Below are positions 29,293-49,908 of a stretch of DNA of 49,908 bases, one piece after another. Both the position numbers and the translations under genes were made by a program. The first letter of the stretch is position 1. Every line of letters begins with the position of its first letter. The notes under the pieces are model-generated. The model saw only the letters and a list, made by a program, of their open reading frames with translations, was not told where the DNA came from and did no database searches. The DNA comes from Agmasoma carcini (nom. nud.). Its lineage: Eukaryota; Microsporidia; Thelohaniidae. The stretch covers positions 1 through 49,908 of the forward strand of contig JAOXFI010000002.1 in assembly GCA_029232285.1 (NCBI GenBank), written 5' to 3'.

Positions 29293-30627
29293 ATGAGAGA
29301 ACTAGTTAGTATTCATATAGGTCAAGCAGGTATACAAATGGGTAATGCTGCTTGGGAATTATATTGCTTAGAGCACGGCATAAACCCTGATGGTACACCT
29401 ATGGGTGAATTTAGTGACCAAAACGAGCCAGCATCCATCTTTTATAGGACTGATAGAAATAAATTCGTTCCTAGAGCTTTAATGGTAGATTTAGAACCCT
29501 CAGTAATTGACCAGGTAAAAGCTAGTAAGTACGGCTCTTTATATCACCCTCAAAACCTGGTTCACGGTAAAGAAGACGCTGCTAACAACTATGCAAGAGG
29601 TAACTACACCGTTGGTAAGGAAATGCTAGAACCTACCGTTGATGAAATTAAAAGAATCATCGAAAGATGCGACAGCACAGTACAAGGCTTCCTCATTTAT
29701 CACTCCTTTGGTGGAGGTACTGGTTCTGGATTTACAGCCGCACTTATGGATCAGTTAAACTACATAAGTAAAGCTTCTAAACTTGAATTTGCAATTTATC
29801 CATCACCTAAGCTTGCCACAGCTGTTGTTGAACCATATAATTCAGTTTTAACAACACACACTACAATTGCTAACTCTAATTGTACTTTCTTAGTTGATAA
29901 TGAGGCCATTTATTCTATTTGTCAAAGACTTGGTATTGAAAGACCAGCTTATAATGATATAAACAGGATAATTGCTCAAGTTTCTTCATCTATTAGTGCT
30001 TCTCTAAGATTTAAAGGTGATTTAAATGTTGATGTTGCTGAATTCCAAACAAATTTAGTTCCATATCCACGTATTCATTTCCCAATAGTTAGCTATGCCC
30101 CAATATACAGTCAACAGAAGTCTTATCATGAAACTAATGATGTTAATTCTTTAGTTAGGGCTTGCTATTCTCAAGAAAATCAAATGGTTAAATGTGATAT
30201 TTTCAAGGGTAAGTTTATAAGTTCAGTTTTGTTATTCAGAGGTGATGTTAATTCACATGATGCTAATAAGTCATTAGTTAGTTATCGTAATGGACGAGCT
30301 GATGCTCGAAGATTTTCTTTCGTTGAGTGGTGTCCTACTGGATTTAAGATTGGTATTAACTCTAGGAAGCCAACTGTTGTTCCTGATAGTGCTATTGCAG
30401 AGACGAGTAGATCTGTTTGTACTTTATCTAACACTACAGCTATAAGTTCAGCTTGGGTTTGTTTACGTGATAAGTTTGATAAGATGTTTAACAAGAGGGC
30501 CTTTGTTCATTGGTATGTTAGTGAGGGAATGGAGGAAGGAGAGTTTTCTGAGGCTCGTGAGAATTTGGAAACACTTATTAATGAGTATGATGCGATTGAA
30601 GCACCTGTATCTGCTGATGAGTATTAA
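29293..30627 (+). CDS. Alpha-tubulin
   Basis: The 444-residue product is an alpha-tubulin, which pairs with beta-tubulin to build microtubules of the spindle and cytoskeleton. It starts [21 protein letters not shown], where MREC is usual in animals and yeast. The GTP-binding signature GGGTGSG is near residue 142. [19 protein letters not shown] keeps the Glu that triggers GTP hydrolysis on the neighbouring beta subunit. [11 protein letters not shown] and [21 protein letters not shown] mark the C-terminal domain, and the protein ends in EY like detyrosinatable tubulins. The loop that carries acetylated Lys40 elsewhere is shortened and has no Lys. Several C-terminal positions are unusually changed ([18 protein letters not shown]). 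There is no intron. The ATG at 29293 gives the conserved N-terminus; open frame upstream of it has no ATG. The neighbour downstream converges on it. Confidence 0.97.
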
Positions 30628-30796: not shown

Positions 30797-32830
30797 TCAT
30801 GAAATTTTCTTTATTTTAACTTTTTTGATTGAGCAATTTCTAATAGCTTCGTTAATTTCAAATTCATCTTCAAATTTTATTAAAAAATATGGTTTAAAAA
30901 CATAATTTTCAATTATTAAGGATAATTCACCATTATTTATTCCTTTAATATAAATTTTAGCTTTTTCTTCTTCTAAAAATCCAAATCCAATTTCTTCGTC
31001 ATTTTGAATTATATGAATTTTCTTTACATTCTCAAGACAGTAAAGAGATTCTGAAAAATCAAGATATAAAATAAAATTATTGTTGTTAAGGCCTGTGGTT
31101 GATGTCGTAGAAGGGTTTGACGATATTGCGTTTGTATCATCGGATGATGTCTCTATTTGAATATTGTCTTGTTCAATGGTGGCTTCCACATCCTCAAATG
31201 TTATTTTATTATTATAAAATGTGCCATTTGATATAATACTGTGATCAGTAATTATTTTTAAAATTTCAAATTCCACAAAATTTGATCTTAAATCTTTTAT
31301 ATGATCTAAATTTAAATTTAAATCTTTCTCTACATAAAGAGATTGAACTGCAATAAGCTCAAGTGGTGGGTCTTCAAAATCTGAAGATGTGTTGATGTCT
31401 GCATGTTCAGTATTAATTATATTCATATCATCATTATCAATTAGATCAAATGATTCTTCACTCAAAAGATTCAATGTTGGGCTATTAAATGAGCCATAAC
31501 CATCATCCGATCCTTCTATTGATAAATCATTGCTTGTATCACTTTTATAACCACTAGAATCTGATGATACAGAACATAAACTTAATATTGAATCAAATGA
31601 TGTATTTTTATCATCAATAAAATCATCATTGTTTCCTTTTATTGGTGTGCTTGATATTGGTTGTTTGATGTTGGTTTTTGAAAATGATTCCTTATCACTT
31701 GAAGTGGTAAAACTGACATTTATTGTTGAATATTTGTTATTAGTTGTTTGTATTGGATCTGAATTATTTGTATTGTCATTGTTTGGGTGTTCTTGTTTTA
31801 ATTTTTTTATATAGCTATGATCGCTTGAAGTATCTAGACTTGTGTTTATTAGACCATCATTAACCAAAATTTTATTAATTGGTCTCTTAAGCGGGTTTTG
31901 ATGCCCATTAGTATCAGAATCGTCATATTCTAGCTTTTTATCACTATTATTACTCGTATCTGAGATTGATGGTTTATCGATGACATTTATTGAATCTGTA
32001 CCAGCATATAAAAGTATTAATTTTTCATATTTGTTTGAATCTTCAACATTTGTTTTTACAAATTCATCATTGAAAAGATTTTCTGACTTTTCTATTTCTT
32101 CATATTTTAAATCAATAGATTCTATTCTTTCACAATATTTCTGGCCACATAAATCATTACCCTTTTTTATGATTGATTTTGTATCAATTGATTCTTCTTT
32201 TACGCTAACTACCTCGATTATATTAATATTGTCTGATTCTTCACTATATTTCAATCCATCATTGATGTTAGAATCATCTAATATTGTTTTTGAAGATTCA
32301 AAGTCTTTTAATATTTCCTTATCTTCAGCCATTTCAACCTTTAATGCTTCATTATTAAGTTTTGAATTTGATATTACAGCATCTCCTTCTTTATTACTAA
32401 CATTTTCAGCCATTTCAACCTTTAATGCTTCATTATTAAAGTTTGAATTTGATATTACAGCATCTTCATCTTTATTACTAACATTTTCATCACAATCAGC
32501 AAACATTTCAGATAATGATGCTCCTGATAAGTTATAGTAATGTGAATCAAGATCATCACTTACTTTATAGTAATTTATGTTAAATATCAATTTATATGAA
32601 CTAGAATAACAATTTAACAAACCAAAGTCTAATTGATTTTGAAATCTATCAAAAATCACAATAAAACTTGTTTCATCAATTTCATCTAAACTAGAAAATG
32701 AATTTGTTAAAGTTTCTTCAATTTCATTATTTGATTCAGTCTCATCATGTTCTGATTCAGAAGTATCGCATATATTGTCTTTAATATGTTTTAGGTTTGC
32801 TTTTATGATTATAAATAAAAATAAAAGCAT
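30797..32830 (-). CDS. Putative secreted two-module family protein, 677 aa
   Basis: I do not recognise this protein. It starts with a short hydrophobic segment (MLLFLFIIIKA) that could be a signal peptide. Residues about 38-100 (EETLTNSFSSL, SFIVIFDRFQNQ, YKLIFNINYY) resemble the first module of the other four family members. Residues 115-168 are a 27-residue unit (ENVSNK...ALKVEMA) repeated twice. A long Ser-, Asp- and Asn-rich, acidic stretch follows to about residue 490. The C-terminal part contains the second module: KITFEDVEATI near 542, NFILYLDFSESLYCLENVKKI near 585-605, IGFGFLEEEKAKIYIKGINN, LSLIIENYVFKPYFLIKFED. It ends with a basic tail (IKKVKIKKIS). There is no obvious transmembrane helix after the N-terminus. 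A secreted or surface protein is inferred from the leader alone. Open frames on the plus strand inside it are shadows. Confidence 0.8.
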   Translation of the reverse strand: MLLFLFIIIKANLKHIKDNICDTSESEHDETESNNEIEETLTNSFSSLDEIDETSFIVIFDRFQNQLDFGLLNCYSSSYKLIFNINYYKVSDDLDSHYYNLSGASLSEMFADCDENVSNKDEDAVISNSNFNNEALKVEMAENVSNKEGDAVISNSKLNNEALKVEMAEDKEILKDFESSKTILDDSNINDGLKYSEESDNINIIEVVSVKEESIDTKSIIKKGNDLCGQKYCERIESIDLKYEEIEKSENLFNDEFVKTNVEDSNKYEKLILLYAGTDSINVIDKPSISDTSNNSDKKLEYDDSDTNGHQNPLKRPINKILVNDGLINTSLDTSSDHSYIKKLKQEHPNNDNTNNSDPIQTTNNKYSTINVSFTTSSDKESFSKTNIKQPISSTPIKGNNDDFIDDKNTSFDSILSLCSVSSDSSGYKSDTSNDLSIEGSDDGYGSFNSPTLNLLSEESFDLIDNDDMNIINTEHADINTSSDFEDPPLELIAVQSLYVEKDLNLNLDHIKDLRSNFVEFEILKIITDHSIISNGTFYNNKITFEDVEATIEQDNIQIETSSDDTNAISSNPSTTSTTGLNNNNFILYLDFSESLYCLENVKKIHIIQNDEEIGFGFLEEEKAKIYIKGINNGELSLIIENYVFKPYFLIKFEDEFEINEAIRNCSIKKVKIKKIS

Positions 32831-33599
32831 ATAATAAAAAAAAGTTCAATTTTTATATTTAATTATGACATTAATTTGTTAATAAAAAATATTCCAAATT
32901 TAGTACTTTTTTTAAAAACAATATAATATTGTTCGAATAAAGTTATTTTTTAGAATTTTTATTATTTATTGTAGTTTTATTACAAGAAGGACGTGTAATT
33001 AAGATTAGCAGTCAATCAAATAAATAATTATAACTTATAAATTATACTTTTTTATTTAATTAATAAATATCAATCCCTTTTTAAAATATCAAATTGATAG
33101 CTGAAATTATTTTGACTTCAATTGATTTTTAAGAACACGTTATTAGTCTATGTGAGTTAGTTATATGTTGGATATTGAACATTTTAATAACAATAATCTT
33201 CAATTGCGAGCTTAAAAAATATATTTTTATTAATCGGGATATTTAATAAAATATTTAAATTCTTATTATAGAAATTGCATCTTTGGCTTGAGTAAATATT
33301 TTATTTTTATATTTGATTAGGTATTTGTATATGAATTAATACTATATTGGTCCAAAATATATATTAATGCAAGATAGATATCATTTTTATAAATATTAAA
33401 ATGATTTTTGTATATTTATATTAGATTTAAATGCTAATATTATAAATTTTTATATACACTTGAAAAAAAAATAGACAATCCTAAAAAAATTAGTTTTTTT
33501 GTGAAACGAGAATTATTTCAATAAATATAATTTTTATCATATGTATTGTTGAATAAGTGTTTATTCGCTTACAAAGACGTTTTAAAACGAATATGGAAT
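32831..33599. other. Intergenic, 5' region of the 677-aa gene
   Basis: AT-rich spacer with no recognisable gene, repeat or RNA. Confidence 0.4.
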
Positions 33600-34260
33600 T
33601 GATTTATTGTAAATTAAACTGAAAACCTGTTCTAGGTTTGCTGTTCTTGTCTCTTAGTTTTATAAATATAAAACTAACTAAGCTAAATATACAAATATAA
33701 TCAATATTGCTTTCAGGCACGTGTTTAAGATAACATTTTATGAATTTTGTAAATTTGCTAAAAAAAATCAAATTCGACAAAAAATATTTATAAATTATTT
33801 ATTGGGTTATTATTTAGATTAATATAGAATTTATACCTATTTTTAATTATATAAATTAATCCTTTAAACATATTATACCATGTTCTAAATTTTCATTATT
33901 AAAATCATTAAGTGTTTAAAACCTGTTTTTAAAAATCTTTTAATATAGCTCGAAATATTATATTTGTTTTAATTCGGGTGATTGATCCATAAATTCATTG
34001 TCTTTATAATACCAATTGTGTCAAATACAAATATAATCATATTAACTTTATCATTATAATATTTTATCTGACATACATACGACCCCGTTACATTAAATCA
34101 CCAAAAAACATTTGTGGTTTTATTGATGCATTCTTCTTTGAGCCAACCATTTGAACATTTCTACATTAACTACTTCCTGTCAGTCTCGTTTAGCTTAAAT
34201 CTGCATTCATTGTTCTATATTTTAATATACAACAATCTTTTGTGTTAAAAGACTTTGAAT
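33600..34260 (-). pseudogene. Tc1-like transposase relic
   Basis: On the minus strand from about 34,215 the reading CRFKLNETDRK, then KCSNGWLKEECINKTTNVFW, aligns with the region after the first catalytic Asp in Tc1 transposases (SDESKFxLNESDRRKxVWR...), including the LNE-DRK block also seen in the relic at 40 kb. The catalytic Asp itself falls at or just before the fragment and was not identified. Stops are frequent, and the C-terminal half is only faintly visible toward 33.7 kb. No ends were found. Confidence 0.45.
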
Positions 34261-34866
34261 TGATCCTGAACTGCTTTATTTAAGTAATTCTTTAATAAAT
34301 ATTTATATTTTATAATTTGTTTTTATCTTGATCACTATCTCAAAATCCTCTTCAAACTATAAATTCTTGAGATTTTTTGCACTAAAGACCTATATAATGT
34401 CATACTTATTTACATTGGACTTTATAATAAATATTTTTAATAATAATAAAGCCAATAACCACTTTAAAGGTGATATATAAACAATATTATTATATTTTTT
34501 TCAAAAATTTACAAAATAAATAAATATATTTTGGTATTATCATCATTCACCATAAGGATTATTATAAAAGTTCACCAAAAATTACCCAATGGGGTTTAAA
34601 GATAAGAATGAGGACAATGGTAAACCTTCTAGTGGTTATGTGGACCACAAGTGATAAGATGAATAAACTATCCTTAATAAACTTTTACTTGCTCGATAAG
34701 CGGGTTACCTCAATAATAAACATTAAATAATGCTTTGTTGTACGTAAATATTATTTCAAGAGAAATTGTAAAGTTTTACCGATGTCTAAGCATTTAATAA
34801 TATTTTTCAAGTGTATTTTTTAATAAATTGTAAGTTTTATAATTACCAACTATTAATAATTAATTT
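34261..34866. other. Intergenic, 3' region of the 359-aa gene
   Basis: No gene was recognised. The 34,540-34,720 part is somewhat less AT-rich but has no open frame or tRNA-like fold that I can support. Confidence 0.35.
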
Positions 34867-35946
34867 TTATTTTATTAACCTCATTTCACCATTATTATCA
34901 TTTTCATTAATTATTATTTCAATAAAGGGATTACAATTATGAAATGTAAGTTCAATTGTTATTTCATTAACGATAGTCGATTCAGGTGTTAATTCAATAC
35001 AAGCATCATCTACATGATTAACGTTAGTCGATTCAGGTGTTAATTCAATACAAGCATCATCTTTTATCTTTTCTACATGATTAACGATAGTCAATTCAGG
35101 TGTTAATTCAACACAAACATCATTTTTAACATTTTCAACATGATTAACGTTAATCAATTCAGGTGTTATTCCAATACAAGCATTATTTTTAATATTTTCA
35201 ACATGATTAACCTCTTCATCTTTTACAAAAATCTTAATTTTATAATTTTTAAAATTATCATAAAATTTTAAATTATTAAATAAAATTATTTCATTATTAT
35301 TTATACCACAACTAATCATAGAAATATCACATAATTTACATTTAGAAACTTGATCTTCATGTAAATATGAATCTATGAATGTATCATCACATTCTGAAAT
35401 ATTATTTTTTAGTAAATTACAGTTCTCACAATATAATTTAATAGCTTTAAAGCCATCATTATTATTAATTATGTTTATTTTGCATTTTACATCTTCATAA
35501 GTTATAATAAAATAGTCAAACTTAATTGAATTGATCACATAATCATTAGACGTACCAAATAAGAATTCTTTAAAATTGTAATCTCTAAAAACTTCATTTG
35601 AATCATCAAAAGCAATAAAAGTAAATTTTTTTGAGTTAATTTCTAAATCTTCAATAAAATTTATAATTTGTGATTTTATATTTTTTAAGGTTAATTTGTT
35701 AGTTATTTCACATTTTTCAAATATAAAAGAATGAACATCAAAAGTAAATGAATCATTGTTGTTTTCTGATGTAGAACCATCTTCTGATACATGATCATAT
35801 GTAAAACCATCTTCTGATACATGATCATATGTAGAATCGTCTTCTGATGCATGATCAGGTGTAGTTATAAAAGTAAAAACTGGTGATATGTTTAAATATA
35901 ACAAAATATTAGTAAACATATTCAAATATTTAAGATTTAGAAGCAT
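34867..35946 (-). CDS. Putative secreted two-module family protein, 359 aa
   Basis: Unrecognised protein. The N-terminus holds a hydrophobic stretch (residues 10-27) that could be a signal peptide; translation may start at Met1 or at Met10. Residues 28-59 hold three near-copies of a TYDHVSEDG unit. The first family module spans about 85-160 (LTLKNIKSQI, KFTFIAFDDSNEVF, DYVINSIKFDYFIITYED). A Cys-rich stretch follows (CENCNLLKNNISEC, CKLCDISMISC). The second module begins at about 219 (EIILFNNLKFYDNF, YKIKIFVKDEE). It is interrupted at 246-328 by about four copies of a roughly 21-residue repeat (VNHVENIKNDACIELTPE-type, one Cys each), and its end reappears as ITIELTFHNCNPFIEIIINEN. That ending closely resembles LYLEFHNISYIEIFILEF in the 236-aa protein. 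The Cys-rich content would suit an extracellular protein. Confidence 0.8.
   Translation of the reverse strand: MLLNLKYLNMFTNILLYLNISPVFTFITTPDHASEDDSTYDHVSEDGFTYDHVSEDGSTSENNNDSFTFDVHSFIFEKCEITNKLTLKNIKSQIINFIEDLEINSKKFTFIAFDDSNEVFRDYNFKEFLFGTSNDYVINSIKFDYFIITYEDVKCKINIINNNDGFKAIKLYCENCNLLKNNISECDDTFIDSYLHEDQVSKCKLCDISMISCGINNNEIILFNNLKFYDNFKNYKIKIFVKDEEVNHVENIKNNACIGITPELINVNHVENVKNDVCVELTPELTIVNHVEKIKDDACIELTPESTNVNHVDDACIELTPESTIVNEITIELTFHNCNPFIEIIINENDNNGEMRLIK
34955..35215 (-). repeat. Coding tandem repeat, about 60 bp unit
   Basis: Four imperfect in-frame units inside the 359-aa gene encode VNHVE..., ACIELTPE and similar words; the fourth unit is shorter. One Cys is conserved per unit. 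Confidence 0.8.
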
Positions 35947-36423
35947 AGAAAATTTATAAAAAAAAATTTTATAAATTTAAAAATTAATATAAAATATTTG
36001 ATAGTTGATATGTATATAAGGTTTAACATAATAATAAATAGTGATTTATTAAATATAAGAATATAACTTAAATATTCTTTAATTACAAAAATTAAAAAAA
36101 ATAATCTTTCAAAAAATAAATAAATCTGTCAATAAAAAGTGCTATAAAATATTTAACATTTGTTATAATCAATTTTATTAGTGGTTTGTTTGTTAGCATA
36201 GCTCAAAATTAAGTTTTATCTATCTAATTGCAAATAAATCATATCAAACAACAAATATTCAATATATTTATTGATATGAAGAGTTTGCAAATTGATAGAG
36301 AAATTACATATTAAAATCAAGTCGAGTATAATTTTTTTAATAAATTTTACCAAATTGTTTTTTATATTTTTAGATATGAACCAAGTTTGGTTAAAATAGC
36401 TATTTATAACTAAAACTATATAT
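35947..36423. other. Intergenic, 5' region of the 359-aa gene
   Basis: AT-rich spacer. No motif was recognised except A/T runs directly before the start codon. Confidence 0.4.
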
Positions 36424-36428
36424 TTAGC

Positions 36429-36466
<38 letters not shown>

Positions 36467-36549
36467 AGTATATAGTGTATATGTATATAAGTATGTAAGT
36501 ATATAAGTATGTAAGTAAATAAGTATATAAGTATGTAAGTAAATAAGTA

Positions 36550-36626
<77 letters not shown>

Positions 36627-36646
36627 AAGTATATGTGTGTATAATA
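36424..36646. repeat. Hexanucleotide (TATATG)n simple repeat
   Basis: Long runs of TATATG at both ends flank a middle part made of TATATAAG and TATGTAAG variants. The apparent minus-strand ORF across it (His-Ile repeats) is an artefact of the repeat. Confidence 0.9.
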
Positions 36647-38125
36647 ATAAACATTTTAAACTAAATTTTATAATTTATTAAAGCATGAGTTTCTCCTTTT
36701 CTTAATAATATATCATTATTATTCAAAGTAAATATTATTAATTGTGAATAATAATATTTTCTAACCTTAACAATTATATTTTCTTTATATTGAAATTTAG
36801 ATTTAAAAGACAAAGATTCTTTATTGTAATAAAAATAATTTTTTGTTTTATAATAGGATAATATATTCAGATTTATAGGTTAAATAACTATTAAATTTAT
36901 CTGTTATAGATTTAGAATGTTAATTATTAAAGGTTCATGTAGTGATAATTTTACATAAAAATGATTATTATTTTTATTGATTAAAAAATTGAAAATCATT
37001 ATCAATTTATAATTACATAAATCATAAATAAAAATATTTACTCTTATTTTGATATTATTAAAGTTGTATGTTCTAATATTTTAAAATATGACTAAACCTT
37101 TATTTAATAAAATACACATTCTTTGACTAGGATTAGGTAATGGTATAATAAATATTAAATATTAAATATATAAATATATAAATATATAAATTTATAAATA
37201 TATAAATATATAAATTTATAAATATAAAAATATAAATTTATTATTGACTTAGATTAGTTCCCTTTTACTAATAAATTGAATTTAAACAAATATTTAAATA
37301 TAAATTAACATAACTAATACATATACTAAAGTTATAACACTTAATATATTTACTGTTAGATATTAATTACAATTGTAGTTATTTTATACTTAACTTAATA
37401 CATAATCATTATTCTACTGTATATTTCTGACCAGGGTAAAAAATTTTAAAATAGTGAATAGTGAATAGTGAATAGTAAATAATAAATATTAAATAATAAA
37501 TATTAAATAATAAATAATAAATAGTGAATAGTGAATAATAAATAATAAATAATAAATAATAAATAAATATTAAATATTAAATAATAAATAAATAAATAAT
37601 AAATAAATATTAAAAAATAATTCCATAATTTTCTAAAACAACATTAATATTTATTATAACAATTATTGTGATTTACCAAAATTTTAAGATAACTGTGTTA
37701 TATCATAGTAACTTAGTTCAATACTAGCTTATATCTTAAAAATGAATCTTTAATGCCAACGAAAAAGAGGTATCTATCTATAGACTGCAAACAAGAGTTA
37801 ATTATACCTAACGGTATTACTTAACCTCTTTGAATCAATTTCTATTTACACCAGGTGTTGTTAGTATAACTTATAATAATTTATTTCAACCCTTTTAAAT
37901 TCTTATAGTAACAAAAATTATATAAATACTGATAAAAATAATGTTAATATTTATGAGAATGTATAATAACATAACTGGTTGTAAACTTTAGATAATACAA
38001 GTATTTGTTATTGGAGTTGAGTGTGTAATCTTGCATGTCTAAGCTCGGTGCTTTGTTGTGGGTAAGAATATAAATATAAATATTAAGATAATACAATTTT
38101 AATATAAATGAATAAAGGGGTTTTT
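36647..38125. repeat. Intergenic stretch with several AT-rich tandem repeats
   Basis: It contains an ATATAAAT-type array at about 37149-37245 and a 7-bp array of AATAGTG, AATAAAT and similar words at about 37448-37612. The remaining sequence has no recognisable gene. Confidence 0.6.
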
Positions 38126-38280
38126 TAATATTATCATTTTTGATATTATTAATTTTTGATATTTTTTTTATAATTATTTTTTTAATATTATCATTTTTTT
38201 GATATTATCATTTTTATAATATTATCCTTTTATAATATTATCCTTTTTTGATATTATCATTTTTTGATATTATTTTTATA
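38125..38280. repeat. Degenerate GATATTATCATTTTT repeat upstream of the 309-aa gene
   Basis: GATATTATCATTTTT and AATATTATCCTTTT words recur about eight times at roughly 15-22 bp spacing immediately upstream of the start codon. This could be promoter sequence or a decayed minisatellite. Confidence 0.55.
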
Positions 38281-38321
38281 ATTAATTTTTTTAATATATT
38301 AAAAATTTTAAAAATTTTAAT

Positions 38322-38325
38322 CCCA
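38322..38325 (+). promoter_or_regulatory. CCC motif before the start of the 309-aa gene
   Basis: TCCCA directly precedes the ATG at 38326. As with alpha-tubulin, a CCC triplet next to the start agrees with microsporidian start contexts and supports this start over the open frame further upstream, which has no ATG. Confidence 0.45.
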
Positions 38326-39255
38326 ATGAAAATTTATTTCTTTTTATTTTTAATAATAAATTTTGTTTCTTCTACACCACAATTTAAAGTTCAAATCAAT
38401 AAATTAGATAAAAGTATTACAATTAAGAACTTTAGATCTATTTTTGAAAAAGCTTACTTTAATAACTTAATTTTCACTTTAAAACATAAAGAATTTGGTA
38501 TAATTTATGAAAAATTATATTTGATTGATTTTTATAATTCTGATCAAGAAGATTACACTTTTAATGTTGAATCATTAGAAATTAATTCTAAAGATTTAAT
38601 TTTTAAATTTAATTTTATAGATATTCATGAAATAAGAAAATATAAATTATTTAAGAAAAAAGTTGAAAAAGTTGAAAAGGTTGAAAAGGTTGAAAAGGTT
38701 GAAAAGGTTGAAAAGGTTGAAAAAGTTGAAAAAGTTGAAAAAGTTGAAAAAGTTGAAAAAATTGAAGATTTTGAAAAGGTTGAAAAGGTTGAAAAGGTTG
38801 AAAAGGTTGAAAAGGTTGAAAAAGTTGAAAAAATTGAAGATTTTGAAAAGGTTGAAAAGGTTGAAGATTTTGAAAAGGTTGAAAAAGTTCAAAATTATGA
38901 AAATTCTATAAATTTTGAAGATTTTGAAATTGTTCAAAATTATGATAAAATCAAACTTAAAAATATTTTAAATTTATTATCAATTAAATGTAACACATTT
39001 TTTGTTAGAATATTTGATCAAGATAAAAATTTATGTATTTATTTACCAATAAAAAAGGATAAAAATTTTGAAATTGATCAAAAAGAATTTTTTATAAAAA
39101 ATGATTTAGATTTTATGAAAATAGATTATCTTGATATAAGAAGTATCAATAGTTTAGGATTTATTGAATTTGAATTTAAAAATGTTGATCTTTTATTAAA
39201 TGATGTTAATCAAGTTTTAAATTGTATTTTTTCTAAGTCTGAAATTGAAGATTAA
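38326..39255 (+). CDS. Putative secreted two-module family protein with KVE repeats, 309 aa
   Basis: Unrecognised protein. Residues 1-16 (MKIYFFLFLIINFVSS) look like a cleavable signal peptide. The first module (31-96) has ITIKNFRSIF, NNLIFTLKHKEFGIIYEKL, EDYTFNVESLEINSKD and LIFKFNF. It is nearly colinear with the 236-aa protein, where the same motif also starts at residue 31. Residues about 112-189 are almost entirely Lys-Val-Glu triplets, broken by a few IEDFE or VEDFE words. The second module (about 208-295) has KIKLKNILNLLSI, FFVRIFDQDKNLCIYLP and LGFIEFEFKNVD. The repeat separates the two modules and would form a highly charged, probably extended or helical linker. The ATG at 38326 was chosen because it gives the signal peptide; the frame upstream lacks an ATG. 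Function unknown. Confidence 0.85.
   Translation: MKIYFFLFLIINFVSSTPQFKVQINKLDKSITIKNFRSIFEKAYFNNLIFTLKHKEFGIIYEKLYLIDFYNSDQEDYTFNVESLEINSKDLIFKFNFIDIHEIRKYKLFKKKVEKVEKVEKVEKVEKVEKVEKVEKVEKVEKVEKIEDFEKVEKVEKVEKVEKVEKVEKIEDFEKVEKVEDFEKVEKVQNYENSINFEDFEIVQNYDKIKLKNILNLLSIKCNTFFVRIFDQDKNLCIYLPIKKDKNFEIDQKEFFIKNDLDFMKIDYLDIRSINSLGFIEFEFKNVDLLLNDVNQVLNCIFSKSEIED
38659..38890 (+). repeat. 9-bp coding minisatellite (GTTGAAAAG)n
   Basis: About 25 units of GTTGAAAAG or GTTGAAAAA encode Val-Glu-Lys; blocks of the G and A variants alternate, and ATTGAAGATTTTGAAAAG words interrupt the array. Because the unit is a multiple of three, other frames are open too (Leu-Lys-Arg forward, Phe-Asn-Leu reverse). 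Those are artefacts. Confidence 0.95.
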
Positions 39256-39639
39256 ATAACTACAATAAAAAATTTATAATTAAAATATAGAAAATATACT
39301 ATTGATTAAATAAGTGGTATAAGTACAATGTTGCTTTTTTATTTCTATTTGTTTTTGTAATAAAGAACAGGTATCCATCAACCGAAAACCAGTTTTATAT
39401 TTTTGTACAAAGTCATACGTTTCTTTTAAATTTATTTTAACCCATGAGCAGTGTTGACCTATTATAATCTAATTAGCAGAGATTTATACAAGTTTTAAAA
39501 CAGTTTAATAAATTAGTTTAATAAATTAGTTTAATAAATAAGTTTAATAAATATGTTAAATAAATATTATACGATATTAACATATATTAATTTTTTATAT
39601 TGCTATATATTTTATATGAATTTTGTAAATTTGATGAAA
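39256..39639. other. Intergenic, with a 13-bp tandem repeat
   Basis: AGTTTAATAAATT recurs about five times at 39502-39566. The rest is AT-rich spacer downstream of the 309-aa gene with no recognised feature. Confidence 0.5.
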
Positions 39640-40560
39640 AAACCAAATATCCGGGGAAAAAAGACGTTTTCTTCTATTATTTTTATTCCTTAATTGTTTT
39701 TTAGATATTTAGAAGATGAAATCTCAATAAAAGATATTTATATCAATAATTTATAAGAGCTAGAAGGGATTAGATTCTTGAGATAAACAATTTAAATCAC
39801 GAAAATTCTATTTTTCACATCAACAGTGTTATCGAAAAACTTGTCATTAAATGTAAAACCAAGAACTATAAAAAATGTATTGGATATTATGAATTTTTCA
39901 TACAAGAGTTGCAGCTAAAAAAGACCTTTTTTTACTAAGGCAAGATTAAAAAATATTAAATATAAGCTAATACAAAGCAATGAGTGCGGGTTTTAGTTAA
40001 ATGAAAGCGATCGAAAGAAATTGGTGTGTAAGAGTTTAAATAATAAAATATCAATAAAAATACAAAATTTAGAAGAATAAGTTTTATGTATTGGGGTTGT
40101 ATATCAGGTAAAGGATTGAGAAACTTGGTACTAGTAAATGAAAGTTAAATCCATGTGGTTATATTAATCTTATAGCACAATTTATGTCATTAGATCAGTT
40201 AATCTTTCACAAATAAAAATCATGTCACATTTCTAGGTTGACAAGGTAATATTTTAATGGTATAAATGTCATAGACTAACTAATTCTATTACACGATTTA
40301 AATCTATTTGATGATACTCAAAAAAATAATTAAAAAGAGGATTAAATCACTAATTAACTAACTAGACAACCTTGTCAAAAATTAAATTATACCATAAGAA
40401 ATTATTGTATAGCAGTTATTAAAGCCAATAATGATCCAATGAATTATTAATAAAGATTATTTTCTTTGTGTTTGGTTTTTTAACCCAAATTTACAAAATA
40501 TAAAATATAATATAAGTTAGCAATTTTAAATAATTTTGAAGTTTCCGTTTTTTTTCCCTC
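39640..40560 (+). pseudogene. Tc1-like transposase relic
   Basis: Plus-strand fragments match the Tc1 transposase core. NECGF then LNESDRKKLVCKSLN (about 39979-40035) corresponds to the SDESKFxLNESDRRK region, with the catalytic Asp changed to Asn. MYWGCISGKGLRNLVLVNES (about 40087-40146) corresponds to the VWGCIS block. The C-terminal part is faint. Stops and frameshifts occur throughout. Ends are uncertain; CCGGGGAAAAAA near 39651 and TTTTTTTTCCCTC near 40549 are possible remains of the termini. It resembles the relic near 34 kb. Confidence 0.55.
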
Positions 40561-40785
40561 TATTATACATGTTTTAATATAAAAGCAGAAAATATATAAT
40601 TTTACATATTACAGAGTGATAACGTTATAAAAAACGAGTAATTAGGCTATAACATTTCAGATATATATAAAGAAATTATATAGTAATTTTTAAAAGGGTT
40701 AGTAAGTTAAACTATTATCATTATATTAGCTGTTGTTATTTTTTTATAAAATCAATTAGATGGTTTAATAAAACGTTTTCACTTA

Positions 40786-42068
40786 CAGTATTCCAAAAAG
40801 AAATATATAAAAAATTGGTTTAATTTAATGGTATAAGTATATCTATTTTATTTTTAAATCGTGTATTTTATATAAACTCTTTTGACAAAATTTTATTTTA
40901 AAAACCAATAAAATACCGGACACCTAGAAAAATACAAAAAATACCCTAGTGGGTAAACAGTTTTCTGAATTTGACAAAAGCCGAATTTTTAAGCAATTTT
41001 CAATAAATGTTTCAATACTCTAAATCAGTGTAAAAACCGACTTAAAGAGATCTACAATACAAGATCACGTCAGAAATTACAAAAATGATGAGAAGATAAA
41101 AAAAAGGTGGTAGTGGCAGGAAGAAATTAATTAATATCGGTAATATCAAATTAATTTAAATATTATTAATAAAACCCCTATGCTACATTCCGTAATATAA
41201 AAATGATTGAAGTTAAATCGAATTTAAGTATATGTGATGAAAATGTATTTCTTTTTCCAAAAATCATACATTGGATGTTTCATCCTTTTCTAAGCCAAAA
41301 TTTTCAAATAATTAACAGAATAAGAATTGCATAAAGGTGGCTATTTGAAGTAGTAAGACTACTTTAGCGATGTTATTTTTCAGATATAATTTTATTAAAA
41401 TTTATAACGATTCTAAAAAAAACAACATCTAAGAATAAAACTTCAAAATTCTGTTAGAAGAAAATATTTTTTTGGAGTTGTATGAGTAGAAATGGTGTTA
41501 GAAAATTTGGTATTTTTAGATGAATTCTTAAATTCGCTATATTATAGTCAAATATTAAGTAATATTTCAAATGAGAGTGCACGAAAATTTTAATTTTCTA
41601 AATATAAATTTCAACAAGACAATGATTCAAAGCATAAAAGTAAAATAGCTTAAGATTATTGAATATATGAATATTGATGTGTTAGAATGGCTTTTACAGA
41701 ACCCAGATCTTAACTCTATAAAACATATGTTGATTATTTAAAGCAGAAACTAAATGTTGTTTTTTAAAAAAAGGCACGTTTAATATTAAAAATCAATAAA
41801 ATATAGTCTGATATCGGCGCCTTACATTATAGAACACTTGTAGATTTTTTTGAATGGCAGAATTAAAGAAGTTTTTGTTGCAAAAGGTGGTCATACATCA
41901 TATTAAATAAAAGTGCACCTTTTTTTATTAAAAATTTCAAAATAGTTTATATATGATAAGCGATTTAAACAACAAATAGATATACTTATACTATTAAAAT
42001 CAAATTTTTATTAAAAAATACACTTTTTGTATAATCTTTTAAAGATACCCAGAATTTTTGGTATACTA
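40786..42068 (+). mobile_element. Tc1-like element (copy B), decayed
   Basis: The left end CAGTATTCCAAAAAG follows TA at 40784-40785; the right end, read inverted, is TAGTATACCAAAAATTC next to TA at 42069-42070. The interior is a relative of copy A (16358-17790) on the opposite strand. Shared blocks include ACCAATAAAATACCGGACAC near 40900, a helix-turn-helix region with GRKKLI-type codons near 41115, TTTGGAGTTGTATGAGTAGA (WGCMSR) at 41472-41491, and a decayed QDND and LNSIKH region near 41620-41735. It is about 150 bp shorter than copy A and has many stops. Confidence 0.75.
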
Positions 42069-42070
42069 TA

Positions 42071-43247
42071 AAAAGTTATTTAACGAATAGCCCATGTTAA
42101 AACATCTTTCAGAAAAGCAAAACGTCAATGTTATTAGTGATTTAATAAATAGTTTTAGGCAAAATTATATATCTTTTTAAAACACAGTATTTTTTTAAAA
42201 CATCAGCAATAAATAGAAAACAAACAAATCAATCGATCAACTAACATGATCTAGACGATACGCGAAGCTTTATTCTTTATCAAAAAATATTTAATAAAGT
42301 TTATTGGTGAAACCTTATTCATCAATTTATCAGAAACAAAAATCACACTTTTAAAGCAATAAGATATCAATCCATCCACATAAACTATATCAAAGGTTTT
42401 TAATAAACAATGTATCAACACATTTTTTTCTTGCTATTAAGCAAAAACAATATTGTTTTACGAAAAAAAATGTAATAATTTTTTGATTTTTTTAAAATAG
42501 GATTGAATCAATTATCTTAGTATAAATGCAAATTTAACCTTTATCAGCTAGAAAATTCTGGTTTTTTTTTGCGACGAAGGAAAGGGAAAAAGCTAAATTG
42601 CAAGTATATTTTACCATTGGAAAACATGGTGGAGGATCAGTAATGGATAAGGTTGACATAACATCTAAAATGGTAGATAGACTTGTGCTTGTTAATCAAA
42701 CTATTGACGTTGGTACGTATAAACAACTTTTGCTCAAAATCTCGAAGAATTTGCATTTATGATAAGCATTTCGGATTTTATTTTCCAGCAAGACAATGCA
42801 CCTTGTAACAGAGCAAAGTTAGTTCAATAAATGATTAGTTGTAAAATTGATTTTTAATAAAATGATCACCACAATGATTTGATTTAAACCCCATCGATCA
42901 AATTTAAGCAAAAATTAAGAAATTTTGGGTTTTTGAAAAAATATGATAAAAAAAGATAAAATCCTTTAAATATAAATCATGGAATATTGAGGCATTATGC
43001 TTTGAGATTCCAAAGGAATGCTTAAGTGTTTTTAGGAGAGACATGTTAATATTTAAATTTCTGGGTGCTACTTTTTTTGGCAAACATATGTTCACACTAA
43101 ATATTATGATTAGAATTCATATTAAGTTGTTGAAAGACAAAAAAACATATGTATTTAAAGTGTTAATTTTATTATATATTTTTTAACTAGTTTCATTTAT
43201 CTCAAGATATTCATTTATGGGGTGCTACTTTTTTTGACCAACCAGTG
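42071..43247 (+). mobile_element. Tc1-like relic, right end intact
   Basis: A transposase-like start MLKHLSEKQNVNVISDL lies at 42092. Then come CKFNLYQLENSGFFLRRRKGK (about 42530-42590, partial), KHGGGSVMDKVDITSKMVDR (about 42621-42680), TYKQLLLKISKNLHL, and FQQDNAPCNRAKLVQ (about 42784-42828) with the second catalytic Asp. The right end reads inverted as CACTGGTTGGTCAAAAAAAG and stops at TA 43248-43249. A second copy of the GGGTGCTACTTTTTTTG word lies 156 bp upstream (43063-43079), so the right end may be duplicated. The left end is unclear and seems to merge with copy B. Confidence 0.6.
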
Positions 43248-43249
43248 TA

Positions 43250-44183
43250 CACTGCCAAAAAAATCTGAATATCTTACTAAGATATTTTTTTGAAATAGTT
43301 TAATTTTGTGATATATATATTAAGAAAGTTATGAATAATTATTTAGAATTTGATAAATATAAATATTTTGTTAATTTTCACCATATGCTAATAATGTAAC
43401 AGAAAGTGAGAATTTTTTACAGTTTTTTTAAAAATAGATATAAATTATACGAAACATACATAAAATTTACGCGAACATTTATAATATTGTTAAAAAATAT
43501 AACTAAACTTGTAATAATGAACAAAAATCGATTCTGGTCATAAAAAATGCATTAATTAATCGTGTTTATTTTTAAAAATTCAAAAATCTATTAATTTAAG
43601 AAAATTCACCGAGAAACCGTAACCACACAAATAATATAATTTATTTAGTGTAGCGAGATTTTATAATGGTAAATATATTAAAAATAAGAAAATGTTTTTT
43701 AGTGATGAAATCAATATTTACTTGTATAACCTTTCAAACACATTTAAAATCTGTAAAAACCTGTTGAGTCATCAATAAATCAAAATTATATAAATTCAAC
43801 AATTAAATTTAGGGCTAGTAATGTAATATTCTGGGGTTGCTATAGTTATAGTGAAATAGGCATGGTTAAATATCAATATGCGATTTTTTGGTGAACAATA
43901 TTGAATCTTCTGTTGAAAAATTAGGATTGATAAAAATATTTTTTCTAATAAGATAATGATCCAAAGTTACGTTAAAGTTCTGATATAACTATTATTAAAA
44001 ATATTTGGAGTTATTTAAAGTCTAAATTGATTATAAAAGAGATTAATATTATGTTCAATTTTATTGAGTCTAAATATTCCAGAATTTGATTTTATCAATG
44101 AAGAAATGTACACTGTACTGTGTAAAAAAAAAGATGATCATATTCTTTATTGATTAAATAAATCATTCGGAATTTTTTGTATG
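43250..44183 (+). mobile_element. Tc1-like relic abutting the previous one
   Basis: It begins CACTGCCAAAAAAATCTGAA directly after TA 43248-43249, so two element ends meet as CCAGTG-TA-CACTGCC. The plus strand holds VIFWGCYSYSEIGMVKYQ (about 43827-43880), a DNDPKL block near 43953 and IKNIWSYLKSKLIIKEIN (about 43997-44050), all from the Tc1 transposase C-terminal half. The N-terminal half is shortened. The right end is uncertain; TCGGAATTTTTTGTATG next to TA at 44184-44185 is the best candidate. Confidence 0.55.
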
Positions 44184-45779
44184 TAAATTTAAAATAAATA
44201 TAAGAACATCAAAATTGTAGTATTTAGCATTGCTTTTAAGAATAGGAATAGACACAAAACTAATTAGTAAGGATTTTCTTTTAAAAAATTACAAATAAAA
44301 TATCTATGAATGCTTACCTTGAAATAATAAGCATATCATAAAAGATTTTAAGGTTGTTGATAAATACAGAAATAAAGTTTTGAATATCTAAATAGAATAA
44401 AAATGATTTGGTTGGTGCAATATTATAATATAAAACAAGAATAGAAATTGAAAAAAAACTTAAAAATATATAAATTTAGATTTACAACATTTATAAACAA
44501 ATTTTGATTAGAAAAAACAGTTTTTATATTTAATAATCTTTTTTCTGAAGACTTAAAAGCTAACATAAGATGTAACAATATAATATTTATATTCTCATAT
44601 GTTGTGGTAAGTTGAATTTACGGATTATAAGAGTCTATAGACAGAGTATTTGTCTATAGACCCTTCCTAACTAATTTTTATCTATATTATCACAAATTGA
44701 AGAAATATGATTTTTTATAGCCTATATGTATGATGAAGTTGAAATATACGATTTCAACCTTAAGAAGCATTCTAATTAAATATCATGGTACGTAGTATGT
44801 TGTTAAAAACCCACAATAATATATTTAAGCTATAAATATTTAAACATGTTATACAAATAATTTTACAAAATAATACGTAATTAAAATTAATAATGAACTT
44901 TTTAAGAGTGATTGAGGTATAAATCAAGTTGTATAGTATTCAAAGTATAGGCAGTGTGATGTAGAAATATAAAATATTAAATAATAAAATAAATTTATTT
45001 GTATATTTACGTATTTGGGATAGATTTTATTTATCTATTTACAATAAATAAATACCATTATCAAAACTTTAAACCTACAAATTTTGTTAATAATACTTTA
45101 CTTTATGATAGTCAAACTTACAGAATATTATACAAGCCACATGATAAATAGAAATTGTATTTTTTAAGTAAATTAAATTGATATTTTACGAATAAGAGAT
45201 GAATTGGTTATAACTAATAAAGACCATGTGTAAATAAATGAATATAAATTTGTGGGTAATAGACAGAATGATATATCAACATTTCTCATTTATCTAGAGG
45301 TTAGAACACATAATAACGATAGTAAAAATGATATTAACAGAATTTGGGTTTTGATCTTATCAAAAGTGATAATTTCAAATATTTTATGTTGAAAAAATAT
45401 ATTAATCTGTTCAAAAGAAAATAAAAATGTTTAATATTAATAATTTAAATTTTATCGTAAATTAAATAGATTCTATTATTGTCAAATTTTAAAATTGATG
45501 AAAATTTTAATCACATCATGATTTTTTTATTGTGTTAGAAGGATATTTAATAATAATAAAATGTTTATTTCTCATTTTCTTGCTTAGCAAAATTATGAAA
45601 TAAGACTTAAAGCAGTATCGATTGTAAACCTGTCCGCTCATTTTCTACAAAGGATTTAAGAATTAATCATCTTACAAATAGAAAAAATCTTGACCAGCAA
45701 GTAAAAACTCTTAAATCAAATAACAATAATAAAATGTAGAAGATACGAAAACAGATATTAATGACTATTACTATTTGTG
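44184..45779. other. Non-coding stretch with a repeated palindrome
   Basis: No gene was recognised. The palindrome GTCTATAGAC occurs twice, at 44633-44642 and 44652-44661. Confidence 0.4.
44633..44661. repeat. Twice-repeated 10-bp palindrome GTCTATAGAC
   Basis: Two perfect copies are separated by nine bases (AGAGTATTT). Each copy is its own reverse complement, and the pair can also form one longer stem. It may be a protein-binding site, a transposon footprint or a structured transcript; no gene adjoins it. Confidence 0.6.
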
Positions 45780-46040
45780 CTTTGGTAAAAGGCAGTGAAA
45801 AAAAACTGATTGTCATGCCGTCTTAAACATCTTAAATTCTGATTTTAAGATTTTAAAGACACCATAATATATTATAGCTGGGCTTAGTGCTATTACACAC
45901 ATCCTATCTTTAAGAAGAGGAATCTGTATATCGACCTCAAACCAATTTCCAAGAGTGAACAAGGTTATCCTTCCTTATCCCAGGCTTGACATGTTAGACC
46001 CCAATTAAACTTTTTTATCTTCTTGAAGATCTGTAATCTT
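45780..46040 (-). pseudogene. Relative of the 25.5-kb piggyBac-like fragment
   Basis: The minus strand is open over about 60 codons, reading ITLFTLGNWFEVDIQIPLL and then KDRMCVIALSPAIIYYGVFK. Compared with the fragment at 25450-25810, the shared features are F-VD--IP, L-D, CVI-L-PA and a following aromatic-rich stretch. A block upstream (INWGLT versus NWIITV) also matches. It is shorter and more decayed. Whether it is piggyBac-like depends on the same single motif. Confidence 0.35.
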
Positions 46041-46504
46041 GGCAGATCTTGAAATATAAACTATAATATTTTATTGTTCATGTTATTCCTTAATAAGGTT
46101 GACAGGAATTTGTAAATAAAAAAACACAAATGATATTTAATCAACAGTCTTGACATAGTTTAGTATATTAATGTTATATAAGTAATGTCTTCTTTTCTTA
46201 TTTTCATAAATAAAATATAAATATTGACATAGAAATTAGTTACTATTGTATCTTATTGATCCAAAGTGTTATTCATCATGTATGTCTACTGGGATAAGTA
46301 TCTTTATATAATTAATTAATAGGAATAATTGAAAATCAATCACAATATATAAAAATACAATATTAACCTTTTTTAATATTATAATGTTATCCTAATTGAG
46401 TACATAACATATATATTTCACTTTCAAACTCTAAACCATGATATATTATATTAGATACAAATTTATAAAATTAAAAATTTTATAATTTAAAAAAAAAATA
46501 TACC
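46041..46504. other. Intergenic, 5' region of the 236-aa gene
   Basis: AT-rich. TACC directly precedes the ATG at 46505, a weaker form of the C-rich start context seen at the tubulin and 309-aa genes. Confidence 0.4.
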
Positions 46505-47215
46505 ATGAAAATTCAAAGTATTATTTTGTTACTGCTAAATTTTGTTGTTCTAACGGTAAATATTGATGCTATAGTAGACAAAGAACAAGATTTAATCACA
46601 ATTAAGAACTTTAGATCACTCTTTAAGCCTACTTTATTTAACAATATTTGTTTTTCCTTAATACATAAGAAAAATGGTATAATTTTCAAAATGTTAAGCC
46701 TTAGGGATTATTTTGATTCCAATGAACAGGATTTTTCTTTTAAACTTAATCTATTAGATTTGAATTCTAAAGACTTGTTATTTAAATTCAATCTCAAACA
46801 TTTAGAAATCTCAAAGGTTTATGAATTGCAATACATAAACGATCAAACAATTTCAATTTTAAACACAAATTCAGTAATGTCTTTTGATTCTAATGTTATT
46901 ATAATTGAAGGTGATATATTATTGCAACCTTTAGATTACGATGATAATTTTTTGAAAATTTTTGATACTTACGATAATTTGTGTGTTTTAGTTGAATTAC
47001 ACAAAAGAGACTTTAATAATAAAAGTTTATTATTGTATGTAGGAGAAAATTCAATACAGAATAAGTTATTATATCTTGAATTTCATAATATATCATATAT
47101 TGAAATTTTTATTTTGGAATTCAAAGATGACTTTATGTTAGAGGATGGAAGCTGTGATCCAAAAAGATTATGTAATTATCATGAGGATGATGATCAATAT
47201 GAGCCTGAAAGATAA
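46505..47215 (+). CDS. Putative secreted two-module family protein, 236 aa
   Basis: Unrecognised; this is the most compact clear example of the family. Residues 1-22 (MKIQSIILLLLNFVVLTVNI) form a likely signal peptide. Module 1 (31-97) reads ITIKNFRSLFKPTLF, NICFSLIHKKNGIIFKML, QDFSFKLNLLDLNSKDLL. It matches the 309-aa protein at the same residue numbers. Module 2 (131-208) starts VIIIEGDILLQPL, then DNFLKIFDTYDNLCVLVEL and LLYLEFHNISYIEIFILEFK. It repeats the pattern of module 1, so the protein seems to be an internal duplication. The C-terminus is acidic (EDDDQYEPER). Here the two modules are joined by a linker of only about 30 residues, without the repeat found in larger relatives. Function unknown. 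Confidence 0.87.
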   Translation: MKIQSIILLLLNFVVLTVNIDAIVDKEQDLITIKNFRSLFKPTLFNNICFSLIHKKNGIIFKMLSLRDYFDSNEQDFSFKLNLLDLNSKDLLFKFNLKHLEISKVYELQYINDQTISILNTNSVMSFDSNVIIIEGDILLQPLDYDDNFLKIFDTYDNLCVLVELHKRDFNNKSLLLYVGENSIQNKLLYLEFHNISYIEIFILEFKDDFMLEDGSCDPKRLCNYHEDDDQYEPER

Positions 47216-47426
47216 ATAAATATGTTTCGAATGATAATTATTGTAGTATGTTATTTAGACCCCCTCTTGTCATAGTGACTCCCCTCAAAAATTTAATAAA
47301 ACATCAAATTGATGTAAGTATGACCAAGAAGTAATGTTTTTTTATTATAATAACCTAATAGTCTGTTTTTGATAATAAACGTTTATTGTTTAATTAAAAA
47401 AAATTGTTAGAATATTATAACATATT
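47216..47426. other. Spacer between the 236-aa gene and the Merlin element
   Basis: Short AT-rich spacer; no feature recognised. Confidence 0.4.
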
Positions 47427-48539
47427 GGTGCTATTATAGTATGCAGTCTATCCGGCAAACTTTTTTACATGGTCTACCAAAATTGACTATAAATTTTTAA
47501 CTATTTATATTGTATTATTTTAATAAATGTTTTTAACAATAAACAACATAAAACAATTTTACAATACTATAATATGTACAGAAGAAGATATTGTTAGGCT
47601 TCTAAGAGAAAATAACCTTCTAGATACACTTGTTGATGCATCTCCTCGCTACAGATGTGGTTCAATAATGAAAGAAAAAAATAAAAAATACAGAAAAAAA
47701 AGAGAAAATTCAATAACAGTATTGAGATGCCCTAAAAAAGGCTGTCATAAAACACTTTTAATACGTTAAAAGTCTGTTTTTTTATGCTTTACTGATGTAT
47801 ATGGAAGCTAACATTATGTGACATTTTGGAACTAATATATTTATTTGTACTAGAATTTCAATTTCAAACGTGGTAGAGAAGGTCATCAAATATTGTCACG
47901 AAATGGTTCGAAATGTGTAGAAAAGTCTGCTAAAAACTAAGATTGTGTGATCAATGCGCAAATGATTTTATCGACTGAAAATCCAATACAGATTGATGAG
48001 GCCAAATTTTCTAGCCGAAAGAAATATAAAAGAGGAAAAATGTTTTCGGGTAATGGACTGAGTTTATATGAGGATCAAACTGTTGAAATTTTTAATAAAA
48101 TTAACCATGGGGTAGAATTGATGAGTAATGATTGCAGATACTTTTGGGTAGAAAGCTGTGATCTAAACACACTTGTTGAAATAATAAATAGAGGGGTTAA
48201 ATTAAGTCTTTTAATTCACTCTGATGAATGACCAGCATATAGATGTTTGAGTTCGATAAGATATCAGTATGTGACTGTAAATCATCAACTTAATTATGTT
48301 GATCTAATTACAGGTACGCATACTCAAGGTGTTGAACGTTCATGGCTTGAGTCTAAGATAAGAATATTAAAAAAACGAAAGGGGTTAAAACGCAAACCTT
48401 TCAATCACATCTTGATTACTTCTGTTGAAGGATTGGTAGGTTCAAACAGTGAAGATTTGCGTAGTGTAAATAAATATTAGTATTATGTATGCTTTTAAGT
48501 AAATAAAATTTTTAGTAGACTGCATACTATAATAGCACC
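47427..48539 (+). mobile_element. Merlin-like DNA transposon with matching terminal repeats
   Basis: The 24-bp ends are exact inverted copies: they begin GGTGCTATTATAGTATGCAG at 47427-47450 and the complement occupies 48516-48539. The interior codes for a Merlin/ISXO2-type transposase in one main plus-strand frame. The flanking bases AACATATT and CATATATT agree at 6 of 8 positions and could be a worn 8-bp target duplication, the size usual for Merlin. Perfect ends with a broken gene suggest a fairly recent copy or one still mobilised by another transposase. Confidence 0.88.
47527..48480 (+). pseudogene. Merlin/ISXO2-like transposase, broken
   Basis: This encodes the transposase that would cut and join the element at its 24-bp ends. 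Three open segments in the same frame (47527-47769, 47947-48231, 48247-48480) hold the family's blocks in order: a Cys-pair zinc finger (YRCGS and RCPKKGC), IQIDEAKFSSRKKYKRG with the first catalytic Asp-Glu, LIHSDE followed by a TGA (48229-48231) where Trp is expected, then PAYRCL, QYVTVNHQLNYVDLITGTH, and TQGVERSWLESKIRILKKRK with the catalytic Glu. A stretch around 47770-47940 has stops and frameshifts. The final blocks are well preserved. It cannot make a full protein as it stands. Confidence 0.88.
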
Positions 48540-49104
48540 CATATATTATAAATGATTTTTTTGAGTGAAAATGTTTATCATAATTGTTGTAAGGTCTGTT
48601 GATTTAAACTTAGTGGAATTTAACCTCTTTATTTACCTCATGATCAGACATGGGTTGATTCAGTTTGAGAGTTTATATAGTTATTGATCATCTTAGACCT
48701 GTCGGTAATATTCCTTGTTATTTCAGATGATCACAACAAACTCGTATTTAGGGTCGTGGAGTTTATGTATAGACATGAATTTAATAAATATCTTTTTAAT
48801 AAAATTCTGTTTCAAATTGATATATTATAATATAAGTTGAGATGTCTAAGATACAATTTAAATTAATTAAAGATTTTTTTATAAATATGTTTAAGGCGAT
48901 AACTATATTTAAACACTGCCTTATCATAACAATTGTCTCGTCTTTAAACTTTAATACTTATTAAACACGACACAATTAACTATCTATAATAATAAGAATA
49001 TCACAATATTACATACTAAACACATCAATCTAATTTAATTAAAATTTAACTTTTATATTTTTTAATTAATTTTCATAAATTTAAAAAATATTTTAAAAAA
49101 AAAC
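48540..49104. other. Intergenic, 5' region of the 233-aa gene
   Basis: AT-rich with A-rich sequence directly before the start codon. No gene, repeat or RNA was recognised. Confidence 0.4.
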
Positions 49105-49806
49105 ATGTCCTTAATATTTCTTTATATTATTGAAGTATTTACTTTATTAGTTTATTTTGACAATCAGAACGAAGAATTGGTGTTTAAGGAGCTAAAACAA
49201 TATTTAATAAGTTCCAAATCCAATTTTTTATATTTTTTTAGTGAAACCCGCAGTTATAAAATTTCTATTTCAAAATATTTCATGGAAAGTCCCAATCAAG
49301 ATTATATTGTATCATATAATGATTTACCAAGATTAAATTACAACTTTACACTAAAAATAGCTTATTTAGATGAAATAAGTCATTTATATGGTATTAGTCA
49401 ATTGGAAAGCAACCTTTGGATGTTAAATTCATCAAATACTAATGCAAGTATTTATTTTAGTGATGAATGTGTTGTTATTAAAGACATAGGTCAATTATTT
49501 AAACCTTTTGGTAATTTAAAGAAAAGAAATTATAAAATTACTATTTATGGGCAGGTGAACGATGGGAATGATTCATGTAAAGTATTAGAGAAAAGTCTTT
49601 ATTCAGGATACTTTAAGAAATATAACATAGTAAATATGATATATAAAAATTCTAAAGCTAATTTTTATTGTATTGAGCTTCAAGTTTTTTATTATAAGTT
49701 TTTTTTAAGTTTTAATTTTTTAAGTGAAATAAAATTTAGAAATTGTATTCAAGGTGAAAATAAAATAATGGAAATGGTAGAGGAAAATGAAGTAGAGGAG
49801 AAATAA
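49105..49806 (+). CDS. Putative secreted two-module family protein, 233 aa
   Basis: Unrecognised. The N-terminal hydrophobic stretch (MSLIFLYIIEVFTLLVYF) could be a signal peptide or a signal anchor. Module 1 (about 24-88) has ELVFKELKQYLI, NFLYFFSETRSYKISISKYF, NQDYIVSYNDLPRLN and FTLKIAYL. Module 2 (about 123-208) has VVIKDIGQLFKPF, NYKITIYGQVNDGND and FYCIELQVFYYKFFLSFNFL. The linker word NTNASIYFSD matches NTNSVMSFDS at the same place in the 236-aa protein. There is no repeat insert. The tail is acidic (MEMVEENEVEEK). It is the most divergent of the compact members. The Merlin element lies upstream between it and the 236-aa gene. Function unknown. Confidence 0.83.
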   Translation: MSLIFLYIIEVFTLLVYFDNQNEELVFKELKQYLISSKSNFLYFFSETRSYKISISKYFMESPNQDYIVSYNDLPRLNYNFTLKIAYLDEISHLYGISQLESNLWMLNSSNTNASIYFSDECVVIKDIGQLFKPFGNLKKRNYKITIYGQVNDGNDSCKVLEKSLYSGYFKKYNIVNMIYKNSKANFYCIELQVFYYKFFLSFNFLSEIKFRNCIQGENKIMEMVEENEVEEK

Positions 49807-49831: not shown

Positions 49832-49908
49832 TATACTTATATACTTATATACTTATATACTTATATACTTATATACTTATATACTTATATACTTATATAC
49901 TTATATAC
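49832..49908. repeat. 8-bp tandem repeat running off the window end
   Basis: About nine and a half copies of ACTTATAT follow each other without interruption to the last base, starting 26 bp after the 233-aa gene's stop codon. The full length is unknown. Confidence 0.95.

Follow-up and report, generated by a model that had tools for sequence, protein, structure and literature searches.

A pair of paralogous, leader-bearing orphan genes on a repeat-rich contig of a presumed microsporidian

The window analysed here is the entire contig C44 (49,908 bases) of a genome of 4.26 Mb in 69 contigs, which is taken to be microsporidian. A first-pass annotation had grouped five open reading frames (ORFs) within it, with products of 677, 359, 309, 236 and 233 aa, as an undescribed family of putative secreted proteins, and all five were present where it had placed them. 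Two of these, g236 and g309, are related to each other and form the main subject of this study. The remaining three, g677, g359 and g233, were at or near background when compared with the pair by phmmer, Smith-Waterman, hidden Markov models (HMMs), hhalign and a motif scan.

The g236/g309 pair

46505..47215, forward strand: g236, a 236-aa orphan ORF and paralogue of g309, with a hydrophobic leader, an N-terminal module (residues ~25-107) and a C-terminal module (residues ~113-236)
38326..39255, forward strand: g309, the 309-aa paralogue of g236, whose two modules are separated by an expanded in-frame EKV repeat
~38657..38945, forward strand: tandem repeat in g309 (9/27 bp) that encodes EKV / EDFEKV units

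In the genome search, g236 and g309 were identical at 45/107 residues without gaps (E 1.5e-20), and phmmer within the five-protein set returned 2.2e-24 over residues 1-107. The gapless N-terminal alignment previously reported for the members at 38.3 and 46.5 kb was borne out, spanning residues 1-107 of each and placing the motifs of either protein at residues 31 and 47. Homology was colinear to the C-terminus, with only 2/2000 shuffles scoring as well over the C-terminal part, and the first module is under selection against amino-acid change. On this evidence g236 and g309 are true paralogues over their whole length.

No third member was found in the genome at E<=10 (two members being a lower bound), so the local lineage-specific expansion of five genes that had been proposed is unsupported and comes down to one pair. 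Inside the window, scans by tblastn and by HMMs in six frames (best 8 per model) revealed no further or pseudogene copies; only g236 and g309 scored strongly, and the next-best match covered 39 residues at 12365-12481 (E 0.016). No DNA similarity was detected outside the coding sequence at E<=1e-5. A search of 5.8 billion proteins covered g236, g233 and the neighbouring alpha-tubulin, with g309, g359 and g677 outside it, and g236 had no match there at E<=10 (384 candidates). Literature searches, which could not use the sequences of the pair, found no description of these genes.

Structure models of g236 (mean pLDDT 44.8) and g233 (35.4) were too poor to compare folds. Matches to the low-confidence g236 model included Ig/FN3-like beta-sandwich modules, the top row being the Epf adhesin domain 4es8, whose fold class was not stated there. 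By eye, the predicted strand order was alike in the two halves of g236 in this poor model. Internal duplication of one module in g236/g309 was not supported, as 679, 539, 1388 and 68 of 2000 shuffles scored as well in the four pairings and hhalign gave a probability of 0.08%.

g233, the leaders and secretion

The other ORFs and their conserved neighbour are:

49105..49806, forward strand: g233, a 233-aa orphan with a hydrophobic leader, weakly linked to an ORF on contig C29 and without a convincing link to g236/g309
34867..35946, reverse strand: g359, a 359-aa orphan with in-frame repeats of 30-bp units (35769-35864) and 51/63-bp units (34966-35211)
30797..32830, reverse strand: g677, a 677-aa orphan that by eye is rich in Asp, Ser and Asn; 81 bp are duplicated in frame at 32324-32489
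29293..30627, forward strand: alpha-tubulin, the sole conserved gene recognised beside the five ORFs and the single housekeeping neighbour that had been described

As also annotated, no known domain was evident, with 0/5 proteins reaching the cut-off of any Pfam family. Below that cut-off, PF20854 matched g309 weakly on its EKV repeat (E 0.00027) and PF18213 matched g359 weakly (E 0.014). In-frame tandem repeats occurred in three of the five proteins, namely the EKV units of g309, 10-aa and 17/21-aa units in g359 and 27-aa units in g677.

For the orphan g233, 163 candidates from the 5.8 billion proteins yielded nothing at E<=10. Apart from itself, it matched a single place in the genome, C29:68543-68908 (24% identity, E 0.002), where an ORF (68537-69649; 370 aa, with a leader) has a sub-threshold Ricin_B_lectin match (E 0.0013) and is related to a tandem ORF pair on C4. 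Possibly, if tentatively, g233 is distantly related to the secreted ricin-B-lectin-like proteins of microsporidia, in which case the set would mix at least two origins. The C29-g233 score of 18.5 bits was reached by 0/500 shuffles, and the reverse search from the C29 ORF returned g233 third of three (E 0.07). However, the C4 proteins scored g233 at just 2.1 and 3.0 bits (19/500 and 10/500 shuffles as good), and a three-sequence C29+C4 profile gave it 3.1 bits (16/500 shuffles as good), with an unrelated ORF reaching 2.9 bits. Furthermore, g233 has no Pfam match at E<=10, was not among the genome matches to PF00652 Ricin_B_lectin, which were C4 and C29 at sub-threshold scores, and contains one Trp and no QxW in its 233 residues. 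We treat the putative lectin link as a lead, short of membership. The pair itself showed no similarity to the ricin-B-lectin-like profile of this genome. The C4 ORFs (L027 646-1170 and 1267-1770) are leader-bearing, tandem and ricin-B-lectin-like, and are related to each other as well as to the C29 ORF. At C27:13251-13433 these C4/C29 ORFs have another weak match (E 0.009), interrupted by a single stop.

Leader hydrophobicity, measured as the best 10-residue Kyte-Doolittle mean close to the N-terminus, was 2.84 for g677, 1.74 for g359, 2.85 for g309, 3.19 for g236 and 2.61 for g233, with alpha-tubulin at 1.1. A hydrophobic leader had been ascribed to all five proteins; it is strong in g677, g309, g236 and g233, whereas g359 falls under our cut-off of 2.3. 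Four of the six window genes exceeded this value compared to 8/56 sampled ORFs (Fisher test, p 0.011), the control being drawn from the initial 10 kb of 20/69 contigs with a minimum ORF length of 150 aa. Several of the eight sampled ORFs that passed resemble membrane proteins by eye. There is thus modest support for the window being a cluster of leader-bearing genes.

We consider it probable that g236 and g309 represent an old duplicated pair, forming an orphan family restricted to one microsporidian lineage and encoding leader-bearing, putatively secreted two-module proteins. Secretion is plausible; the leader would send both proteins into the secretory route, from which they may arrive at the surface of the parasite or in the host cell. 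Each may work as a two-module binding protein whose modules would be beta-rich and possibly sandwich-like, joined by a linker presumably free to vary in length, and it is in this linker that the EKV repeat of g309 sits. Several points weigh against this reading. The dS between g236 and g309, ~1 from some 47 synonymous sites, is rough, and diverged members may escape because the genome search scores first-look candidates only (two per query). Any statement on fold is weak because the first-module model has a pLDDT of ~50-75 and derives from two sequences. The leader cut-off was our own choice and g359 fails it, some sampled ORFs lack a true start because the stretch end cuts them, and hydrophobicity, the only property by which leaders were judged, does not alone prove secretion.

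A charged residue interrupts the hydrophobic run in the leaders of g233 and g677, which would fit leaders that serve as signal anchors or are hydrophobic by chance, on proteins acting inside the parasite, for example in membranes or the spore. We find this rather doubtful, as strong leaders are commoner among the window genes than among the sampled ORFs, and clade-specific proteins with signal sequences typify the host-exposed Nematocida proteins (PMC5423893).

An improbable common origin of the five ORFs, and their genomic setting

A further reading holds that the five genes all go back to a single ancestor that duplicated locally, and that they diverged past sequence detection while keeping the leader, the first and second motifs and the acidic turn. 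By pairwise phmmer, g677, g359 and g233 had no meaningful score against the pair or one another. Two HMMs, each built from the two pair sequences, were run against shuffles and a background of 94 ORFs (68 used in one test), which includes near-duplicates from overlapping C23 loci (L030-L036) and of which HMMER scored 87 and 89 in the respective tests. The shared-N-terminus HMM gave 0.8 bits for g359, 0.1 bits for g233 and -3.2 bits for g677, with 39/200, 75/200 and 191/197 of their own shuffles and 10/87, 26/87 and 80/87 background ORFs scoring as well. With the full-length pair HMM the corresponding scores were 2.9 bits (4/200 shuffles, 2/89 background ORFs), 1.9 bits (6/200, 3/89) and -0.4 bits (27/200, 11/89), the top shuffle reaching 8.3 bits. 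Profile-profile alignment, which the first-pass annotation had proposed for all five proteins, was run as module-level hhalign with nine segment profiles and reached a top probability of 5% in 36 comparisons.

Four motif strings had been quoted for the five proteins, and those of g359 and g233 did not exceed chance. The two motifs lie at residues 85 and 107 in g359 and at residues 24 and 40 in g233, and their letters are what composition gives. Over the first 150 residues, the best motif-pair score was equalled or bettered by 181/500 shuffles and 36/94 background ORFs for g359, by 443/500 and 73/94 for g233, and by 259/500 and 68/94 for g677. In proteomes encoded by strongly AT-rich DNA, where I, K, N, F, L, D and E abound, motifs aligned by eye readily suggest families that fail a composition control.

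Pairwise scoring under a lenient matrix favours common ancestry to some degree, as the g236-g233 and g236-g677 scores were each beaten by 1/56 background ORFs, although the scores of g233 and g677 with g236 were not repeated with its paralogue g309. Because of this 56-ORF control we raised our estimate for a five-gene origin very slightly, and it stays improbable. Still further from likely is that the five genes make up a single superfamily of rapidly evolving secreted beta proteins with two modules and a linker tolerant of repeat insertions (EKV, 17/21-aa, 27-aa), kept in a repeat-rich, gene-poor compartment as a microsporidian counterpart of two-speed effector compartments. The best reading of g677, g359 and g233 is as separate orphan leader-bearing genes that share composition and a leader with the pair, and in g677 and g359 a repeat-rich habit as well.

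Contig C44 is rich in repeats, several of them diverged repeats seen on self-comparison, and its GC content averages 23% (16-29% in 2-kb steps). The closest relative of its alpha-tubulin was that of Agmasoma penaei (70% identical), the remaining named microsporidian tubulins being 60-64% identical, among the best 120 of 2755 matches. The ~29 kb 5' of the tubulin (1-29292) contain no ATG ORF of at least 112 aa. Long ORFs are scarce in some other sampled stretches too, including C15 with 0 ORFs of at least 150 aa in 10 kb. Within the background set, two near-alike ORFs starting MRLNNHIF (L010 9190-9999 on C5 and L017 3-866 at the start of C40; E 2.4e-91) are another duplicated family; both are cut by a stretch or contig end, and their leader hydropathy (1.9-2.0) is under the cut-off.

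Between g236 and g233, a DNA transposon remnant at 47427-48539 is bounded by 24-bp terminal inverted repeats (GGTGCTATTATAGTATGCAGTCTA at each end). Its broken ORFs resemble, by eye, a Merlin/ISXO2-like transposase, and the three pieces had no Pfam match at E<=0.01. Inverted copies of one diverged repeat occupy 40803-42027 and 16399-17733 (72% over 1357 columns), each with its own inverted end repeats (40807-40904/41920-42011, 79%; 16355-16542/17610-17793, 89%), and the second copy includes a sub-threshold HTH_40 match at 17281-17490. A short ORF resembling a transposase remnant by eye carries a 93-bp in-frame tandem duplication (24053-24239), and 24150-24430 matches 42522-42810 at 68%. A 638-bp palindrome at 6225-6862 is 86% identical to its own reverse complement, with weaker palindromes at 3333-3731 (69%) and 26702-26763 (81%). 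The contig terminates in a perfect (TATACTTA)n array (49832-49908). Because the TATACTTA unit is also found inside C2, C23 and C55, as well as on C33 and C57, the array seems to mark an assembly break and not a telomere.

Comparison with described microsporidian families

Transposons are annotated across the microsporidian genomes of PMC12558613. Secreted ricin-B-lectin-like families arose by tandem duplication in Spraguea and Nosema bombycis, and 30/52 members of the N. bombycis family keep the domain (PMC3749934, PMC9224602). These proteins are leader-bearing and duplicated, and g233 weakly matches such an ORF of its own genome; unlike them, g233 has neither QxW nor a Pfam match, and g236/g309 do not resemble the lectin profile.

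PMC5423893 reports that signal sequences are enriched among the host-exposed proteins of Nematocida, which are clade-specific and frequently belong to large families, and that large families of such proteins are common in microsporidia. NemLGF and the other host-exposed or secreted families reported there resemble the pair in having leaders, no outside relatives found, no known domain and a history of duplication. However, those families by definition number 10 or more homologues within a genome, whereas the pair has two members found and a putative host exposure. The pair is best read as a new small member of a kind already described for microsporidia and as an ordinary find for these parasites, adding what seems to be an undescribed orphan family of two genes in a microsporidian whose alpha-tubulin shares at most 70% identity with the matches listed.
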